NCBI RefSeq assembly: GCF_003691585.1
Contig: NZ_CP033169.1
Coordinates: forward strand, 434,001-498,000
Direction of reading: 5' to 3'
DNA length: 64,000 nucleotides
From: Biomaibacter acetigenes
Lineage (GTDB): Bacteria; Bacillota; Thermosediminibacteria; Thermosediminibacterales; Tepidanaerobacteraceae
Shown: positions 49,965 through 59,696 of the stretch, in pieces
Layout of the letters: each line of letters begins with the position of its first letter
How positions within the stretch are numbered: the stretch's first letter is position 1
Position numbers and translations under genes: made by a program
Notes under the pieces: model-generated
Database searches by the model: none
The model's input: only the letters and a program-made list of their open reading frames with translations
Told to the model about the DNA's origin: nothing

Positions 49965-51923
49965 ATGCCGGAAAAAAATTTTAAGACACTTGCCCCATTA
50001 AGCGGGGAAAGCACAGATACCGTAAGGATTGAAAAAACTGGTGTAAACCAGGCGGAAACAGCAGGGCGCAATATAGACAGGAAGCAGCTTGAAATGCAGA
50101 GGAAAAAGGCGCGCACCTTTGCAAAGAAACAGCAGGCAGCGGAAAGGATTGCGGCTGCCACCGAAGAGTTGTCATCGGGTGTGGAGGAAGCCTCAGGAGC
50201 AGTAGAAGAACTGAGGTCTTCCATGGAACAGATTGCCAGCGGAGCAGAGGAAGCGAGCAAAGCGACCCAGGAGTCACTGGCGGCCATTGAGCAGATAACA
50301 AAAGGATCAGAGCGGGCAGCGGAAAATGCCAGGCAGGCACTGGACCGAGGGAAGGCCATTCAAACGCTTATTGAAAAAACTGCTGAAGACATAGAAAAGC
50401 TTGTAGAAGGTGTTAACAAGGCATCTTCTAAAAATGAGGAGTCGGCAAAGCTTGTAGCACAGCTGGAAAAGCAGGCGGAAAACATAGGCAATATAATTAA
50501 GACGGTTGTCAGAATAGCCGATCAGACCAATTTACTGGCGTTAAATGCGGCAATTGAAGCGGCTCGGGCCGGAGAGCACGGTAAGGGATTCGCTGTGGTG
50601 GCCGATGAAGTAAGGGTGCTGGCGGAGACTTCTGAAAAGGCGGCTAATGACATAAGAGAAGTTGTAAATAGCATTCAGCAGGAAGTAAAGGTCGTAGTAG
50701 ATGCTATTAATGATTCGGCGGCTCAAGCGCGCTCTCAGGTGGAAAAAGGAAAATCAATAAATGAAGACCTGATTTCTGTTATCAGGGCAATGGAAGAAGT
50801 CATAAAAGCTGCAGCCATAATAAATGATCTCAGCCGCCAGTCGCTGCAGGCTGTCCAGGAATTCCAGAAGGGAGCAGAAATAATCGCAAGCGGCGCCGAG
50901 GAGCAGGCCAAAGCGACGCAGGAATCCCTCCAGGCGATAGACCAGCAGACAAAAGCCCTTTCTGACATAAGTCAGGCAGCCGCGGAACTTGCTGAAATGG
51001 CAGAGGAATTGAAAGATTCAACCGATACTCAAAAATCGTCGGAGAGCCTTGCGGCTGCGGCAGAAGAACTTTCTGCTGCTATTGAAGAAGCAAGCAAATC
51101 GGCAGACCAGATCATGGTGGCCCTTTCGCAGATATCCAGAGGTAGTGAACAGCAGGCAGGGGCGGCTGAAGAATCTTCCGGAGCCGCGGCGCAGATAGAA
51201 AAAGGGATGAAGACAATCAGCGAAGAGGCCCAGTCGTCCTTAAACAGGGTTAAAGAACTATCAGAATTGCTTGAGCGCAATAAAGCAAATGTAGATATGC
51301 TGATTTCCGGGATTTTGGATGCCATGAATGCAGGTAAACAAAATATTGAAAAGATAAAGACACTGGAATCCAGAGCTAAAGAAATCGATAAGATTGTGGA
51401 TACCATCGCTACAGTCGGTATTCAGACGAATATGCTTGCCGTAAGTGGAGCTATAGAGGCGGCAAGAGCAGGAGAATATGGCAAGGGTTTTGCGGTTGTA
51501 GCATCGGATATCAGAAATTTGGCTCAGGACAGCGCACGCAATGCTGAACAGATAAAAGAGCTTGTAAAGTCTATACAGGAACAGATAAAGATTGTACTGA
51601 TGGATACGGAAGCAATAAGCGAGTCTACAGTTCAGGAGGTAGAAAAAGCAAAAAAGACTTCAAAGGATCTTGATCAGATAGAAAAAGACATGAAAGCTAT
51701 ATCAAAAGGTACGGAAGAAATTGGTGAAGAAGCAAGGCAGAGCGTTCTGGCCATTGAGGAGGCAAAAAAAGGTGTTCAGCAGATTGCGTCTGCTGCAGAA
51801 GAGGCGTCCAGAGCCGCACAGGAAGCGGCTGCGGCAGGCAAGCAGCAGGCGGAAGGCGTGAGAGAACTTTCAAGAGCAATTGAGGAGATTGCGGCGTTGG
51901 CTGATGAACTGCAGCAGTCTTGA
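49965..51923 (+). CDS. Soluble double-hairpin methyl-accepting chemotaxis protein
   Basis: A 652-residue receptor-like protein without any membrane segment or sensor domain. It is almost all coiled coil with Ala/Glu/Gln heptads and contains two separate signalling tips: [20 protein letters not shown] (about residues 180-200) and [23 protein letters not shown] (about 480-500), each followed by the GKGFAVVA return strand. The second tip is diverged (AVSGAIEAA in place of ALNAAIEAA). Methylation-like EE/QE pairs flank both. It begins the chemosensory operon (MCP-CheW-CheB-HEAT-CheR-CheA-Hpt) and probably organises a cytoplasmic array. Input unknown. AGGAGGT is upstream. Confidence 0.9.
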
Positions 51924-51959
51924 GTTCTGAAAAGAATTAATTGATAGGGTGATAATTTT

Positions 51960-53483
51960 ATGGAATTAAATAAGAGCGAAAGGTCGATTGACAGCAGCCA
52001 GTACATCACCTTCTATCTGGGCAATGAGATGTACGGTGTGGCTATACAATATCTGCAGGAAATAATAAGGGTCCCGGATGTGATAAAGGTCCCGCGTGTC
52101 CCTCTGTATATTCGGGGCCTTACCAACCTGCGGGGGACCATCCTGACGATTGTGGATTGCAGGTTGCGCCTTGGGCTTGCAAAAGAGGAAGATACTGAGG
52201 CAAGCCGGGTGATTGTGCTGACAGCGGATGACAAAAGGCTGGGATATGTGGTAGATCGGGTGGCTGGAGTAATATCTATTCGAAGGGATGAGATAGAGGA
52301 AATATCCGGGGCAGAAGCTAAAGGAGATTTCCTGGAAGGCGTAGCAAGAATGGAAGATGGCGGAAAGTTGGTTATGCTGCTGGATGCAAATCGGCTCCTT
52401 AAATCCTGGGATGGAGAAGCCGGCAAAAAAAATGTGATTTGCCGGACTGTAAATAGCGAAGATAATAAGAAAAGTCCGGATTCTGCCGGTGAAGAGCAGC
52501 TGCAGCTCATCAGCTTCAAGATAGGTGACGAGGAATATGGGATAGAGGTGGCGAACGTCCAGGAGATAGTCCGTTTTTCCGAAGAAATCAACGAAGTCCC
52601 GAACACCCCTCCTTATATTCTTGGAATCATTTCCCTTCGCAGCAAAGTATTGCCCATTGTAAGCCTCAGGCGGTTATTTCGCATGGAGGAATGCGCCTTT
52701 GATGAGAAGTCAAGGATCATAGTAACTCATATAGACGAAGAAGACTGCTCATATACAGTCGGATTTAGGGTCGATGTGGTTTCAGAAGTGCTGCGCATCG
52801 CTAAAGCGTCAATTGTCTCGATGCCGCCGCTTTTGAAAGACAGGGATAGCGAAGAGATAAGCGGAATATGCAAGCTTGACGGCGCAAGGCGCCTGGTTTA
52901 TATCCTTGACCCTAAAAAGATGTTTTCCCACAGGCTGAAAGAAAGTGCTGATATATTACGGTCTTGCGGAGATGATGATAGGATGGAAGTTATTGAAGAG
53001 AGAGATGAAGAGGAACAGCTTGTGAGTTTCGTGTTGGAAGGTATAGAATGTGCATTTTCTATAGAAGACGTGAGGGAAATAATAAGGCTGACGGATATAG
53101 TGGCTGTTCCCAAGGCGCCGGATTTTGTCGAAGGTGTTATAAATCTGCGCGGCGTAATCGTGCCCGTCATTGATCTTCGTAAAAAGTTTGGATTAAAGGA
53201 AAGTGAACGGAGTGAGCATAACAGAATAGTAATCGTCGAGATTTCCGGCAGGTGTACCGGCTTCATTGTAGATTCGGTTAAAGAAGTTCTAAAGGTGAAG
53301 CGAACCCAGATAGAAAACACGCCCGAAATTCTGGTGGATGAAATAGATCAGAGGTTTATCAGAGGTATAGCAAAATTTGACGGAGCAAACAGGATGATTA
53401 TTCTTCTTTCTGCGGAAGAGGTCTTGTCGTGGAAGGAAAAAGAAGAGCTTATGGAAATTAACGAAGAAAAGTTAGGAGAATGA
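51960..53483 (+). CDS. cheW: Triple-domain CheW coupling protein
   Basis: A 507-residue protein made of three CheW domains in a row. Each opens with a short beta strand and the receptor-binding motif: [46 protein letters not shown], then [23 protein letters not shown]...[19 protein letters not shown], then [23 protein letters not shown]...[19 protein letters not shown]. Normal CheW has one such domain, so this may bridge several receptors or CheA units. It ends overlapping the cheB start (ATGA). It belongs to the same operon as the soluble receptor. Confidence 0.92.
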
Positions 53484-54599
53484 TTTCAGGTATGGGTAAA
53501 AAAATCCGCGTGCTTGTAGCGGACGATTCTGCTTTCATGCGCAGGTGCTTAAAAGATATTCTTGAAAGCGAAGAAGACATAGAGGTGATTGACACTGCCC
53601 GGGATGGGCTAGAAGCGGTAGAAAAGACCCAGAAAACTTTACCCCGATGTAGTCACCCTTGATATAAATATGCCGCACATGGATGGTCTTACGGCACTGC
53701 AGCATATTATGTCTCTTGCGCCCTGCCCGGTTGTAATTATTTCATCCCTCACTACGGAGGGGGCCTTAACCACCCTTGAAGCCCTTGAGCTTGGAGCCGT
53801 TGATTTCGTAGCAAAACCCGGGGGTACAATTTCACTGGGAATAAAACAGCTGGCCGATGAAATTGTGGAAAAGGTTAGAGCAGCTGCTCTTTCGAACAGG
53901 AAATTGATAGGTAGTTCAGGGTTTTTCAGAAAATCTGCCGGTGAAATTAAAAGGCAGGATGCGTCTGTAAAGATAAATAAGGCCAGGATTTTAAAAGATG
54001 AAATTGTTGTAATTATTGGAGTTTCAACCGGTGGGCCGAAGACTCTAATGGAGATATTGCCGCGCCTTCCTTCCGACTTTCCGGGGGCAGTGCTGGTGGT
54101 CCAGCACATGCCCCCGGCTTTTACGGAATCTTTTGCAAAACGCCTTGACCAATACTGCAATTTGCCCGTAAGGGAAGCAAGCGACGGAGCTGCTGTAGAG
54201 CCCGGAACGATTACTATAGCAAAAGGCGGGTGGCATCTTGTGGTGGAACAGGATGCGGGGAAATTGGGCCTAAAAGCCAGATTGACCGTGGAACCTGAAG
54301 AGGCGCTGTACAAGCCGTCTGTTAACATTACCATGAAATCGGTGCTTGAAAATATGGATGGCCGGAATATTATAGGCGTGCTGCTTACCGGTATGGGCGA
54401 CGATGGAGCCGATATGATGGTTGAGATAAGAAAAAAGGGCGGGTTTACTATCGCAGAATCGGAAGAGACAGCAGTGGTTTATGGTATGCCCAGAGCGGCC
54501 ATTGAGCGAGGCGGGGCAGACATAGTAGCACCCGCTTATAAAATTGGAGATATTATATTAAAGAAGGTGAATGAATATGCAAGAGTCTCGCATAAATGA
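53480..54599 (+). CDS. cheB: CheB-type protein-glutamate methylesterase (frameshifted)
   Basis: CheB removes methyl groups from receptors and is switched on by phosphorylation of its receiver. The receiver starts [20 protein letters not shown]. An extra A in the run 53633-53636 breaks the frame; removing it gives [20 protein letters not shown] with the phospho-Asp. The catalytic domain is complete: Ser in [14 protein letters not shown], His in [13 protein letters not shown] and Asp in [16 protein letters not shown] 53480 overlaps the cheW stop; ATG 53492 is an alternative. It is probably functional if the indel is an artefact. Confidence 0.88.
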
Positions 54600-55155
54600 G
54601 CTATTAAATTTGATGAAAAACGGCAAAAGTGAAAACGAACGCATAGTGGCGGCGCTTGATCTTGGAGAAGCCGAAGGTGAAAGAGTTGTGGAGGCCCTTA
54701 CAGGGCAACTTGAGGTAGAGACAAGCAGGGCAGTTCAGGAAGCGATAGTAAGTTCTCTTATTAAAATAAGGGACAGGTGTGTGGCTGAGTCTGCGGCAGA
54801 GCTTTTAAAGAACGAAGATGCATATATTAGAAACGCTGGAGTCGAAATACTTGCCCTTATTGGAGATTCGGCGCTGGATGTCATTGAAAAAATGATTAAA
54901 CACCCCGACAAAGATGTCCGTCAGCAGGTTGTCAATGCTTTGGGGGAGGGGCGTTTAAAGAAAGCGCCGATGATTTTAAGAAAAGTGATAGAAGAAGATG
55001 AAGATGAAAATGTTGTAGCAGCAGCAATTGAGTATTTAGGCGAAGTTGGCTGCGGCAAGGAAGACAGGGAAGTAATAATGCGGGCTGCCAAACGTTTTTC
55101 CAGCCCGTTTTTTGACTATACTGTGAAAACTGCTATAATGAAACTTTCAGGGTAA
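54571..55155 (+). CDS. HEAT-repeat protein in the chemosensory operon
   Basis: A 194-residue alpha-helical protein with HEAT/PBS-like repeats: NERIVAALDLGEAEGERVVEALTGQL, ETSRAVQEAIVSSLIKIRD, AYIRNAGVEILALIGDSALDVIEKMI, KDVRQQVVNALGEGRLKKAPMILRKVI and NVVAAAIEYLGEVG. Such repeats bind protein partners. It overlaps cheB by 29 bases (ATG 54571 with GAAGGTG upstream) and precedes cheR, so it is almost certainly part of the pathway, perhaps as a scaffold or substrate of methylation control. No enzymatic motif. Confidence 0.8.
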   Translation: MNMQESRINELLNLMKNGKSENERIVAALDLGEAEGERVVEALTGQLEVETSRAVQEAIVSSLIKIRDRCVAESAAELLKNEDAYIRNAGVEILALIGDSALDVIEKMIKHPDKDVRQQVVNALGEGRLKKAPMILRKVIEEDEDENVVAAAIEYLGEVGCGKEDREVIMRAAKRFSSPFFDYTVKTAIMKLSG

Positions 55156-55184
55156 AGGCTGTTTTTTTGAGATGAGGTGCAAAA

Positions 55185-56003
55185 GTGACGGTTGAAGAAT
55201 TTGTAAAGCTAAGGGATTTTGTATATAGAAAGACCGGAATTTATTTTGAAGAGCATAAAAAGTATTATGTTGAAAGCAGAATTGAAAGCCGCATTAGGGC
55301 AACCGGTCATGAAAATTTCAGAAGTTATTTTACATGGCTGCGATTTGACATGATGGGGAAGGAACTTCAAGAACTGGTCAATCTTTTGACGGTAAATGAG
55401 ACTTATTTCTTCAGGGAGTATTATCAATTGAAATGTTTTGCGGAAGAAGTTCTGCCTGAGATTCTGGATAAAAAGCGGGGAGAAAAGCTGCGGAAGATCC
55501 GCGTCTGGTCTGCCGGGTGTTCTACGGGCGAAGAACCGTATACGCTTGCAATAATTATGGAAGAAATGCTCGAAGACCTGGAAGGTGTAACCTGGGAGGT
55601 CCACGCAACTGATATCAATACTGAGGTCATGGAAAAAGCTGAGCTTGGTTTGTATTCAAAAAGGTCTGTCCGGTTGGTGCCCGAAGAGTACAAAATGCGT
55701 TACTTTTTAAAACGCGGAGAATTTTATGAAGTAATACCAAATATTAAAAAGAAGGTTGAGTTCTATCAGCTTAATTTAATGGATGCCGCAGAAATGCGAA
55801 AAATGAACAATTTTGATTTGATTTTTTGCAGAAATGTGCTGATTTATTTTGATGATGCATCGCGAAGGGAGGTGGCCCTTTACTTTTATGAAGCCCTGAC
55901 AGAAGGCGGCTATATATTTTTGGGCCATTCCGAGTCGATGAGCCGTATAACTCCAATTTTTAAACTGCGTCGATTTAAGAATGCATTCGTATACCAGAAA
56001 TGA
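55185..56003 (+). CDS. cheR: CheR-type chemoreceptor methyltransferase
   Basis: A 272-residue SAM-dependent enzyme that methylates glutamates on the receptor coiled coil. The N-terminal helical domain (FVKLRDFVYRKTGIYFEEHKKYYVESRIESRI) and NLLTVNETYFFREYYQLKCFAEEVLP are diagnostic. The SAM site is IRVWSAGCSTGEEPYTLAIIMEEM, and FDLIFCRNVLIYFDDASRREVALYFYEAL and GYIFLGHSESM follow. GTG 55185 has GAGGTG upstream. It pairs with CheB in adaptation. Confidence 0.94.
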   Translation: MTVEEFVKLRDFVYRKTGIYFEEHKKYYVESRIESRIRATGHENFRSYFTWLRFDMMGKELQELVNLLTVNETYFFREYYQLKCFAEEVLPEILDKKRGEKLRKIRVWSAGCSTGEEPYTLAIIMEEMLEDLEGVTWEVHATDINTEVMEKAELGLYSKRSVRLVPEEYKMRYFLKRGEFYEVIPNIKKKVEFYQLNLMDAAEMRKMNNFDLIFCRNVLIYFDDASRREVALYFYEALTEGGYIFLGHSESMSRITPIFKLRRFKNAFVYQK

Positions 56004-56017
56004 GGTGATGAAAGATT

Positions 56018-58333
56018 ATGAAACTCCGAGCTTTAATTGTAGATGATTCTGCTGCGGTCCGAGGCTTTCATGGCTCGATACTTCGGGATGCGGGGTTTGA
56101 GATAGAAGAAGCCGCCAACGGTTATGAAGCCCTGGAAAAATATTTCAAAAAAAAATTTGACCTTCTGCTGGTTGACGTGAATATGCCCAAAATGCACGGA
56201 TACGAGCTAATAAGACAGATAAGACAGCAGGAGCTTTACGGCTTTATCCCCGCCATAGTCATATCCACAGAGTCGGGAGAAAATGACTATTTGGAAGCCT
56301 TCCGAGCCGGAGCCAATCTTTATATAGAAAAACCTGTTGATCCAATTTACCTGCAGCTTTCCGCCAGGATGCTGACGGGAATTCATACAGACGACAACAT
56401 ATTATGCACAATTTCGGCAGATAGAAAAAAATTTTTGAGGGAATTATTGCATAATAAAGACGGCGATATATACGAGGTATCGCTGCAGACAGTCGACGCC
56501 GGCGCAATGGAGGTTGATATACTTGATGTTTTCTGCAAGCTGAGAGAAATCGGAGAAGTTGCACATATTGCTGCTGATACACAGAAATTGCCTTCGCTTC
56601 AAGATTTTGACCCTTCTATCCCCTATGTATCATTGACATTTGTTATCGTGACCGATAAAAGCGCGCAGGAGATAGAAAATGTTATAAGGGAAGCAGTGGG
56701 ACCTGAAAGCAGCATGAGGGTAATTGTATCTCCAGTGTCCTCAGAAGCAGGTGGGGATATTATAGAATCGGGAAGCCGTTCTGCGGATATTTATGCTAGT
56801 GAAGATAAGGTAGGCGAAGTGCTGGATTTGATCATTTCTCAACAGAAGGTATTCTACGAGATTGCCCAAACCCCGGAAGAACAGCGATCGAGGGGGGATA
56901 TAGTAATAAGTATATTGCAGAAAGCAGCAGAGTACATGGGCTGGATTACAAAGGGAGAAAGCCTGATTGAAGCATTTGAAAAAAATGAGGGCAAATGGCC
57001 TGATAGGTTTTTAGCTCTTATTAGCCGGATAATGGAGGACAAAGGAAAAACAGGCAGAAATGAGCAGGATAGTATCGGCAGAACGGCGGCTGTGGAAAGG
57101 GATGAAAAAGTTGCTGCAAAAACCAGCGGGGGTGACGGCGGTTCAGAGAGCGAAACAACAAAAACATTGAAGGTAGAACAGTCTAAAGTGGATGAACTCA
57201 TGAATTTGGTTGGTGAACTGATCGTGGTTAACAATGGCCTTTCGTATATGGTAAGAAAAGTTGAAATTAAATACGGTTTGTCGGAAATAACAAGAGAGTT
57301 AAAAGAAAGACATGTTTTGCTGAATAGAATAGGAAAGGATTTACAGGATATAGTTATGGGCTTACGGCTTCTTCCTATACGCTATATCTTTGACCGCTTC
57401 CCGCGAATGATTCGTGAAATCAGCAGGAAGTTGAATAAGAAGGTGCACCTTGTCACCGAAGGCGAAGAGACACAAATAGATAAAAATATCGTAACGGCTC
57501 TTTACGATCCGATGCTGCACATTATAAGGAATGCGATCGACCATGGCATTGAAGAACCCGAAGTTCGGCTGAAAGCCGGCAAGCCCGAAGAAGGCACGCT
57601 TGTTATGAGCGCCCAGCGTATAGGAGACAAAGTCGTGGTTGAAGTCAGAGATGACGGGCGCGGCATCGACCCTGATGTTGTACGGGCTAAAGCGGTTGAA
57701 AAAGGGTTTGTATCTATTGAAGAAGCAGCCGGGATGAAAGATGATGAAGCATTAGAACTTTTGTTCTTACCCGGTTTCAGCACTTTGGAAGGTGTAACCG
57801 AGCTGTCCGGCAGAGGGGTAGGAATGGATGTAATCCGGGATACGGTTAAAAAACTGGGAGGAAACGTGCGCGTGGTCAGCAAGGCAGGAACGGGAACTTC
57901 TGTATTTATGGAACTGCCTGTGACAATGGTGACATCAAGAGTGCTGCTCATTACCATGCAGGGCCGGCGCTACGCTTTGCCGCTCGAAAGCGTACGCGAG
58001 ATGGTAAAAATCAAAGCAGATGATATAAGGAGGATAAAAGGAAAAGAAATAGTTGTCATTAGGCAGGAAATAATACCGATTTTAAGGCTGCGGGAGTTTA
58101 TGGGGCTTCAAGGCGATACAGATAAGGGGTATGAGTTTGAAGAGTATCCGCTGGTTGTGCTAAATAGCGGCATGGCAGTGGTGGTGGATGAATTTGTTGG
58201 TGAGCAGGAAATTATCATAAGACCGCTTTCTGAGGAACTTTCTTCTGCCACCTGTTTTTTAGGCGCAGCCATACTGGGAGATGGAAATATTGTCCTTGTA
58301 CTGAATACTGAAGAACTGGCTGGAGGGGTTTAA
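56018..58333 (+). CDS. cheA: CheA-type histidine kinase with N-terminal receiver and no Hpt domain
   Basis: A 771-residue CheA variant. Residues 1-118 form a receiver (DD at 9-10, phospho-Asp53 in LLLVDVNMPK, Thr84, Lys105 in IEKP). Residues 130-340 hold a region resembling CheA P2-type domains. Then come the dimerisation domain (VDELMNLVGELIVVNNGLSYM), the ATPase domain (N box LHIIRNAIDHGIEEP, G1 EVRDDGRGIDP, G2 LSGRGVGMDVIRDTV, GTGTSVFMELP) and the CheW-like P5 domain. No His-containing Hpt (HxxKG) domain is present. That domain is in the next gene, so phosphotransfer must occur between two proteins. AGGTGATG precedes the ATG. Confidence 0.92.
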   Translation: MKLRALIVDDSAAVRGFHGSILRDAGFEIEEAANGYEALEKYFKKKFDLLLVDVNMPKMHGYELIRQIRQQELYGFIPAIVISTESGENDYLEAFRAGANLYIEKPVDPIYLQLSARMLTGIHTDDNILCTISADRKKFLRELLHNKDGDIYEVSLQTVDAGAMEVDILDVFCKLREIGEVAHIAADTQKLPSLQDFDPSIPYVSLTFVIVTDKSAQEIENVIREAVGPESSMRVIVSPVSSEAGGDIIESGSRSADIYASEDKVGEVLDLIISQQKVFYEIAQTPEEQRSRGDIVISILQKAAEYMGWITKGESLIEAFEKNEGKWPDRFLALISRIMEDKGKTGRNEQDSIGRTAAVERDEKVAAKTSGGDGGSESETTKTLKVEQSKVDELMNLVGELIVVNNGLSYMVRKVEIKYGLSEITRELKERHVLLNRIGKDLQDIVMGLRLLPIRYIFDRFPRMIREISRKLNKKVHLVTEGEETQIDKNIVTALYDPMLHIIRNAIDHGIEEPEVRLKAGKPEEGTLVMSAQRIGDKVVVEVRDDGRGIDPDVVRAKAVEKGFVSIEEAAGMKDDEALELLFLPGFSTLEGVTELSGRGVGMDVIRDTVKKLGGNVRVVSKAGTGTSVFMELPVTMVTSRVLLITMQGRRYALPLESVREMVKIKADDIRRIKGKEIVVIRQEIIPILRLREFMGLQGDTDKGYEFEEYPLVVLNSGMAVVVDEFVGEQEIIIRPLSEELSSATCFLGAAILGDGNIVLVLNTEELAGGV

Positions 58334-59239
58334 ATGGAATGGAATTACATTGATGCATATGTTGAAGAGACGGGGGAACAGCTTTCAAGTTTGGAGCAAC
58401 TTTTTCTGGAATTGGAAAAAAGACCTGAACAATCGGAGATTTTAAACGAGATTTTCAGGATTGTGCACACATTAAAAGGCTCATCAGCTACTATGGGTTT
58501 CATCGAAGTAGCAGATTTCAGCCATAATTTGGAGAGCTTTTTTGATAAGCTTCGAAAAGGTGAAATTAGTATTAATGATGAACTGGTAGACCTTTTCTTT
58601 AAATGCCTTGACGCCCTTAAAGAAATGACCACTGCAGCGATCAAAGGAGAAGTTTATAACGGCAATGCAAATAAGCTTACGGAGATTATAGACAATTTAA
58701 TACAAACAGACTCGACCAGTAAAATTAAAAGTCAGGGAGAAAATACCAAATGGCAGGTATCGGTAAGGATAAACAGTGATTGTATGATGAAAACTGCTCG
58801 CGCTCTGATAATAGAAAAATATATCGAGGAAATGGGTAACATATTAAGCATTGATCCACCTGTTGACGTTTTAATAAAAGAAAAACTTGAATGTGAAGAA
58901 ATATCGGCGGTAATTGAAATTCAAAGAGATGTCGAAGATGTAGTTTTGGGGCTGAAAAATATACCAGATGTAGCGAAAGTGGAAATAAGACAGTCTGATA
59001 AAAACCCTGACGGTGTGCGAATAAATTTAAGCATAGCGCATAAACCCGATGACCTCAAGCGCTTAAAAGAAGCATTGTTGCACGCCGATGAAATAAAGCT
59101 TGAGTTTAGCGAAAGGTATAAGATGAATCTTGCACTACTGCAGCTTGTACTTGCCGCTCACAGGGAAAACAGAATGGTACGTTGTGAAAAAGGCGGAGGC
59201 CCTGCAGTCAAGATGTTAAAGCTAATGGGTGTATTGTAA
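58334..59239 (+). CDS. Stand-alone Hpt (P1) protein, partner of the split CheA
   Basis: A 301-residue protein starting directly after the CheA stop. Residues 1-110 are an Hpt domain: YVEETGEQLSSLEQLFLELEKRP, then IFRIVHTLKGSSATMGF with the phospho-His at residue 45, and FSHNLESFFDKLRKGEI. Residues 140-300 (WQVSVRINSDCMMKTARALIIEKYIEEMGNILSIDP...) resemble CheA P2-type domains, as in the CheA gene next door. It supplies the P1 and P2 functions missing from or separated in CheA. Zero-base spacing implies tight translational coupling. Confidence 0.88.
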   Translation: MEWNYIDAYVEETGEQLSSLEQLFLELEKRPEQSEILNEIFRIVHTLKGSSATMGFIEVADFSHNLESFFDKLRKGEISINDELVDLFFKCLDALKEMTTAAIKGEVYNGNANKLTEIIDNLIQTDSTSKIKSQGENTKWQVSVRINSDCMMKTARALIIEKYIEEMGNILSIDPPVDVLIKEKLECEEISAVIEIQRDVEDVVLGLKNIPDVAKVEIRQSDKNPDGVRINLSIAHKPDDLKRLKEALLHADEIKLEFSERYKMNLALLQLVLAAHRENRMVRCEKGGGPAVKMLKLMGVL

Positions 59240-59267: not shown

Positions 59268-59696
59268 GTGAATGTATATGAGATTTTCAAATGCTATAGA
59301 ATTAATCCGGAAGAAATTGTGGCCGAAATTACAGAACGAGAGACCGTGAAGGATATTAATGCTGTGTACGTTTTTGCTAGGGAATTAACAGAACTCGGGG
59401 TGCGGTTTACAATAGACGATTTTGGAAGTGGTTTTTCTTCATTCATTTATCTTCGTTACTTTGGCTGCTACTTTGCCAAGATTGGGGGTTCTTTAGTGCG
59501 TGATATAAATAGGAGCGGACGTTCAAGAATGATAGTAGAAAACATGGCAAAACTTTTGCAAAGGCTTTCGATAGAGGTAGTAGCAGAATTCATAGAAAAT
59601 CGTGAAATAGCTGAAATATTACATCGCTCAGGCATCCGCTACGGTCAGGGCTATTATTTGGGAATGCCGTCGATATGCCCTGGTTATAAAGATTAA
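59268..59696 (+). pseudogene. Truncated, degenerate EAL domain
   Basis: The frame encodes the C-terminal two thirds of a c-di-GMP phosphodiesterase (EAL) domain: INPEEIVAEITERETVKDIN, VRFTIDDFGSGFSSFIYLRYF and IRYGQGYYLGMPS. The first part, with the EAL motif, is missing. The usual KIDGSFV is KIGGSLV and AEGVE is AEFIE, so catalysis is unlikely. AAGGAG at 59263 would better serve an ATG at 59278 in another frame. It may be a remnant or a non-catalytic c-di-GMP binder at the end of the chemosensory operon. Confidence 0.7.

Follow-up and report, generated by a model that had tools for sequence, protein, structure and literature searches.

Gene content of the operon

The window, a 64,000-nucleotide stretch of the Biomaibacter acetigenes genome (contig NZ_CP033169.1, positions 434,001 to 498,000), contains a compact chemosensory operon at 49965-59239. 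Pfam searches of this interval identify seven co-directional genes on the forward strand, encoding a two-tip soluble receptor, a triple CheW, CheB, a HEAT protein, CheR, a CheA with a receiver domain, and an Hpt-P2 protein. The first gene (49965..51923, +) encodes a DosM-type soluble chemoreceptor, matched by PF00015 in several stretches (E 8e-68), whose two signalling tips lie near residues 194 and 494. A transmembrane stretch is absent by hydropathy and motif scanning, the highest 19-residue hydropathy being 1.27. Homologues of this receptor, 45-93% identical, are encoded by the first gene of the same operon in other Bacillota. The second gene (51960..53483, +) encodes CheW3, a protein of three tandem CheW domains (PF01584, three stretches, E 4e-104).

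The cheB gene (53480..54599, +) encodes a receiver and a methylesterase, and is represented by PF01339 (E 9e-63) and a partial receiver match. DNA alignment places a +1 frameshift near 53630, leaving the frame open only from 53670. It is followed by a HEAT-repeat protein (54571..55155, +; PF13646, E 7e-29), which belongs to the conserved operon and is found in most annotated operons of this class in the Bacillota sample, and by a CheR methyltransferase (55185..56003, +; PF01739, E 1e-60; PF03705, E 7e-17). Downstream of the seven genes, and not counted with the system, is a probable gene fragment (59268..59696, +) that matches the EAL family PF00563 only over positions 107-236 of 236, its C-terminal half.

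A CheA divided between kinase and Hpt-P2 protein

The original prediction described the CheA gene (56018-58333) as a receiver joined to P3-P4-P5 domains, with every ATP-site box and no HxxKG helix. Domain searches bear this out: Pfam identifies Response_reg, H-kinase_dim, HATPase_c and CheW, and the N, G1, F and G2 boxes are present, with the ATP-site residues N505, D545, G586 and G598. The receiver occupies 56018..56383 (+; PF00072, E 1e-25), and the dimerisation, ATPase and CheW-like core occupies 57143..58333 (+; PF02895, E 3e-16; PF02518, E 9e-17; PF01584, E 1e-19). Between them lies a linker (56384..57140, +), region X of this class of CheA, which aligns with split and P1-bearing homologues; it appears P2-like, with a beta-alpha-beta-beta-alpha-beta order followed by helices in a low-confidence model. 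A single-sequence model folds the receiver and linker poorly (mean pLDDT 50).

The stop codon of the CheA gene abuts the start codon of the next gene (58334..59239, +), giving the zero spacing that had been claimed. This gene encodes a stand-alone phosphotransfer protein composed of a P1/Hpt domain (PF01627, E 3e-17) with its phospho-His at residue 45, a P2 domain, and a STAS-like C-terminus. The part earlier called P2-like is matched by the P2 family PF07194 (E 2e-14). A motif scan of the interval finds a single HxxKG, that of His45 in this protein, and none in CheA. A hidden Hpt domain in the CheA gene, considered beforehand as the result that would speak against the split, was rejected, since Pfam detects none even at E 0.1. 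The operon thus encodes a bipartite CheA, that is, a P1-less kinase together with a separate Hpt gene.

The AlphaFold2 model of the Hpt-P2 protein (mean pLDDT 84.7) matches the P1 structures 1tqg and 1i5n, the P2 structure 1u0s and also 2lp4; among these are a P1-CheY/P2 complex and the Thermotoga maritima P2-CheY complex (2lp4, 1u0s). Pfam finds no CheW-like P5 domain (PF01584) in 58334-59239. At the C-terminus, STAS_2 is only sub-threshold in Pfam and the order of strands and helices in the model agrees with it; the tail may therefore be called weakly STAS-like, as a description of predicted fold and not of function.

Membership in chemosensory class F9

The combination of genes, which the original prediction did not recognise, corresponds to chemosensory class F9. 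A two-tip soluble receptor and a triple CheW are described as unique to this class and define it (PMC9321776), the receptor having neither a sensory nor a transmembrane part. In the window, one tip motif of the receptor is at residue 194 and the other at residue 494, a transmembrane stretch is absent, and PF01584 occurs three times in the concatenated CheW. The class also has a CheA with its own P1 and a free CheY; here CheA has no Hpt domain and CheY is fused to it, the P1 being present in the CheA of 16 sister operons. Since F9 is defined by DosM and CheW3, a P1-less CheA and a fused CheY represent variation inside the class. In a kinase tree composed of CheAs from DosM/CheW3 operons and the other CheAs of the genome, the window kinase joins the DosM-operon CheAs on a 97/89 branch that leaves out both further CheAs of its own genome; the long branches of G004 and G338 fall outside this group.

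Structural knowledge of the class comes from cluster I of Vibrio cholerae (DosM VC1403, triple CheW VC1402, CheA VC1397), whose DosM extends across two layers of CheA and CheW in a cytoplasmic array (PMC7534058). The two systems share a soluble receptor with two signalling domains, CheW3, and a cluster of CheA, CheB, CheR and CheY (PMC7534058, PMC9321776). Unlike the Vibrio cluster, the window has its P1 in trans on the Hpt-P2 protein, a CheY fused to the kinase, and a frameshifted cheB. Full F9 sets were found in 64 of 2781 species, mostly alongside another chemosensory class and flagella, and partial sets lacking cheA and cheY arose independently in several groups, Firmicutes among them (PMC9321776). 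The window genome fits this survey pattern, as it has flagellar genes and further CheAs. The earlier statement that no flagellar gene is seen thus holds for the window and fails for the genome, in which FliG, CheC-family genes and a canonical CheA lie in a che/fla locus at 1.50-1.52 Mb, with a third CheA at 2.96 Mb.

Distribution in Bacillota

A census of 398 Bacillota genomes with the receptor as query (E at most 1e-120), in which all loci were annotated by domain queries, recovered 34 F9-type loci in 32 genomes. Sixteen have a P1-bearing CheA with intact HxxKG (G004, G016, G018, G053, G072, G099, G134, G135, G144, G165, G194, G198, G242, G318, G339 and the second copy of G401), G165 being included though its contig ends after P1. 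Twelve have the split of the window type (the window, G015, G017, G024, G060, G089, G121, G171, the second copy of G278, G364, G383 and the first copy of G401), counting G024, whose contig ends ahead of the Hpt gene. One further locus is split in another way, and the last five are broken, incomplete or cut short (G001, G142, G231, the first copy of G278, and G297). The split operon therefore recurs in related Bacillota, as the proposed check of gene order elsewhere had asked. An additional split locus beyond the 34, G020, was found through a search with Hpt in a Tepidanaerobacteraceae genome bin (contig JASUSP010000013.1).

Several loci deserve separate mention. One genome, G401, has two F9 operons, of which one is split and the other P1-bearing (L074, L180). 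In G278 (L179, 6190-10604), about 2.5 kb between the two receptor tips interrupts the gene, probably through insertion of a mobile element. The array gene set of G339 is joined with a partner-switching module: DosM, CheW3 and CheB (L178, 11250-16425) are followed by an RsbR-like STAS protein, a second STAS-like protein, an anti-sigma-type ATPase, a SpoIIE-like phosphatase, a HisKA kinase and a stand-alone Hpt-P2. A CheA with P1 and the motif HTIKG is located well downstream of the receptor cluster (L185, 2485-4935).

Two genomes hold reduced loci. In the congener G001 (L061, L030), the receptor, 93% identical, and a truncated CheW lie on one contig, where the last EAL residues are joined to the truncated CheW (L061, 8781-9233), and a C-terminal scrap of the Hpt gene precedes spore-germination genes on another. 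The G142 operon (L065, 6146-12141) runs only from the receptor to CheR, without CheY, CheA or Hpt, and is followed by GGDEF-like and reverse-transcriptase-like genes.

Fusion of CheY to the kinase

The absence of CheY that was noted in the original prediction proved wrong in substance, as the receiver of CheA is the operon's own CheY, which is a separate gene in relatives. In G015 and G017, the gene preceding the kinase encodes a CheY of 136 residues, with which residues 1-122 of the CheA in the window share 88-89% identity. Comparison with the DNA of these two genomes places the approximate fusion point, GGAATTCATACAGACGA, at 56378..56394 (+), where the end of CheY passes into the CheA linker. 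The window DNA GCTGACGGGAATTCATACAGACGA consists of the cheY end (GCTGACAGGTATTAGGTAG in relatives) followed by the sequence found right after a degenerate P1 of the kinase, here termed pseudo-P1 (GTAATTCATACAGACGA), with ATT shared at the joint. Relative to both genomes, the window lacks about 420 bp, which hold the stop codon of cheY, the region for ribosome binding and the entire pseudo-P1 (about 136 residues), and the reading frame is kept. From this alignment, the N-terminal receiver of CheA is identified as the neighbouring CheY, fused by in-frame deletion.

The active-site residues of the fused receiver (D9/D10, D53, T84 and K105) are intact. Among the split operons in which this end of CheA is visible, the fusion occurs in the window genome only. 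Independent acquisition of the receiver as a CheA domain was rejected given the joint with the neighbouring cheY, and an assembly collapse that produced the fusion is unlikely because the joint shares only about 3 bp.

Origin of the split

The history of the split is recorded in the kinases of G015, G017, G171 and G024, which begin with about 130 residues matching an Hpt profile. This pseudo-P1 has Asp or Lys in place of the phospho-His and has lost the KG motif. Its hhalign probability is 89.6% against stand-alone Hpts and 91.1% against the P1 of P1-bearing F9 CheAs (E about 1e-6), compared with 1.2% (E 0.046) for an unrelated helical control profile (HEAT). In G015, G017 and G171, the pseudo-P1 kinase is accompanied by a full Hpt-P2 gene, and a free-standing cheY lies ahead of it. 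Replacement would be expected to leave this arrangement, in which the P1 of the kinase is dead and a live one is encoded next door.

The phylogeny of P1 domains points in the same direction. Stand-alone Hpt P1s cluster with canonical CheA P1s, away from the P1s of P1-bearing F9 CheAs, with support of 99/96 in a tree that leaves out the pseudo-P1s and the long branch G004. The stand-alone Hpts also carry the PF07194 P2 domain, which Pfam does not find in the sampled P1-bearing and pseudo-P1 F9 CheAs. An AU test leaves a grouping of Hpt P1s with F9 P1s unrejected (p 0.19), likewise a single Hpt clade (p 0.31). Given the former value, descent of Hpt-P2 from an ordinary, flagellar-type (canonical) CheA is likely but short of proven. 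In a concatenated tree of five operon proteins, a 99.5/93 branch separates P1-bearing operons from split operons with Hpt-P2, and G338 falls inside the P1-bearing side. The simplest interpretation of these sequences is that the Hpt-P2 split arose once; the concatenated tree favours this, and by the kinase tree alone the two split sub-groups may or may not form one clade.

These data bear on the plainest alternative, in which an ordinary CheA broke in two and a receiver was added independently. The original prediction had pointed to relatives with the two genes fused in normal order as a sign of an indel, and CheAs with their own P1 do exist in the same operon, as such a breakage might lead one to expect. 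Their P1, however, probably belongs to another lineage, and those sampled lack a Pfam P2, so that replacement is a better fit than plain breakage. A split common to 12 related operons is also at odds with an indel confined to a single gene. The Hpt-P2 gene stands after the kinase gene and not before it, and the P2 domain it carries was not found in the P1-bearing F9 CheAs tested. The pseudo-P1 persists on the four kinases described above, three of them beside a full Hpt-P2 gene, and the receiver is the adjacent cheY. Plain fission is accordingly disfavoured by the pseudo-P1 and the P1 tree, and is regarded as very improbable.

Under replacement, the starting point would have been an F9 operon whose CheA was of the ordinary kind with P1, and this operon would have acquired a separate Hpt-P2 gene of the flagellar-CheA type. 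The native P1 would then have lost its His, decayed and later been deleted; in the window, the cheY stop codon would have been deleted with it. We infer this order of events from the forms present in living relatives.

Proposed working and output

The locus is best understood as an F9-class cytoplasmic chemosensory operon whose bipartite CheA arose by replacement and acts through phosphotransfer in trans, a reading considered highly probable. Its domain content, gene order, pseudo-P1 intermediates, fusion joint and selective constraint can be read in the DNA and protein sequences. By analogy with characterised members of these families, the two-tip receptor would combine with CheW3 into a soluble array of two layers, in which P5 would anchor the P3-P4-P5 kinase. 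Because the kinase lacks a phosphorylatable His, P4 would pass the phosphate of ATP in trans to His45 of Hpt-P2. The P2 domain would dock a receiver and hand the phosphate on, this receiver being the free CheY in relatives and the kinase-tethered CheY in the window. With CheY fused, the output could only be an array-tethered receiver or a phosphate sink, unless Hpt-P2 serves a CheY encoded elsewhere. A fuller scenario extends the stepwise replacement in trans: a phosphotransfer module descended from a flagellar CheA would have taken over the F9 kinase, the native P1 would have died and been deleted, a stress-type cytoplasmic array would have been rewired to a new set of receivers, and, in this genome, the cognate CheY would then have been immobilised on the kinase as a tethered sink. 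This scenario is offered tentatively.

Besides CheY, the usual target is CheB, whose receiver part here holds the frameshift. Since the operon encodes no free CheY and its CheB is not intact, three readings are left: service to another CheY, a tethered sink, or decay. In the first, Hpt-P2 would link the F9 array to the flagellar pathway by carrying phosphate from the F9 kinase to the flagellar CheY at 1.51 Mb. Free CheY-size receivers are encoded elsewhere in the genome at 1.51 Mb (1509768) and 2.96 Mb, and the former adjoins a CheC-family gene and the flagellar locus. The clustering of the Hpt P1 with canonical P1s (99/96), and a canonical-type P2 that structurally matches the T. maritima P2-CheY complex, would suit such a partner. 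In relatives, the simplest partner is the conserved CheY encoded within the operon, and a flagellar link is considered unlikely.

Decay is suggested by the cheB frameshift and by the loss of most of the operon in the congener G001. In cheB, one extra base near 53630 (within 53480-53670), missed in the original prediction, separates the receiver from the methylesterase in comparison with G015, G017 and G142; it can be a real mutation or a sequencing error. On this account, the fusion and the frameshift would have left a remnant with neither an adaptation enzyme nor a diffusible output, heading for loss. The survival of only a receptor, a truncated CheW and an Hpt scrap in G001, the loss of cheY, cheA and hpt in G142, and the EAL fragment downstream of the window operon are consistent with it. 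The remaining genes are nevertheless intact, the kinase and receiver motifs are complete, the deletion kept the reading frame, and a single-base indel may be an artefact of sequencing. Purifying selection is also evident across the operon (dN/dS 0.09-0.28), although this value, being measured between the window and G017, covers mostly the time before the fusion. Decay is conceivable and somewhat short of an even chance.

Comparison with known split CheAs

Bipartite CheAs, in which a P1-less kinase lies beside a separate Hpt gene as it does here, were described by Berry et al. (2023, PMC10782961). According to that study, 1.7% of CheAs lack Hpt, some of them because the operon encodes the Hpt in a gene of its own. 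The sections consulted contain neither pseudo-P1 intermediates nor a P1-P2 replacement of this kind. N-terminal receivers have likewise been reported on a few CheAs, and the window kinase has additionally gained its receiver from the adjacent cheY. In the CheA3/CheA4 pair of Cereibacter (Rhodobacter) sphaeroides, which is the studied example (PMC10782961, PMC6829392), the P3-P4-P5 kinase CheA4 likewise phosphorylates a separate P1 protein; a cytoplasmic array and degenerate second domains after duplication are further likenesses. CheA3 differs in that it carries a P5 itself, together with a phosphatase region for CheY6, whereas the Hpt protein of the window has P2, a STAS-like tail and no P5. 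A model predicts ultrasensitive or bistable output from a split kinase when its phosphatase activity has been separated as well (PMC3591291). Kinases consisting only of P3-P4-P5 have also been reported from Caldicellulosiruptor and Thermoanaerobacter tengcongensis (Hamer et al. 2010, PMC2829493); compared by description, they too are P1-less and come from thermophilic Bacillota, and they were not linked there to F9 operons or Hpt-P2 partners.

A limited search of open-licence literature returned no account of a split F9 CheA, of pseudo-P1 intermediates or of such a CheY-CheA fusion. The split as such has been reported before; the stepwise route within F9 and the fusion of CheY to CheA appear to be new. 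Such divided kinases are rare, and arguments about how they arise have relied mainly on a single example, that of Rhodobacter. Among living relatives of the window operon are a P1-bearing CheA, a dead P1 beside a new Hpt-P2, and a P1-free kinase, to which the window adds a clearly derived CheY fusion. The natural separation of P1-P2 makes the phosphate flow of F9 arrays testable with small soluble proteins.

A second and independent type of split occurs in G338 (L177, 686-5476), where a P2-P3-P4-P5 kinase is encoded with an Hpt-CheW(P5) protein. This P1 protein with its own P5 resembles the arrangement of Rhodobacter CheA4/CheA3.
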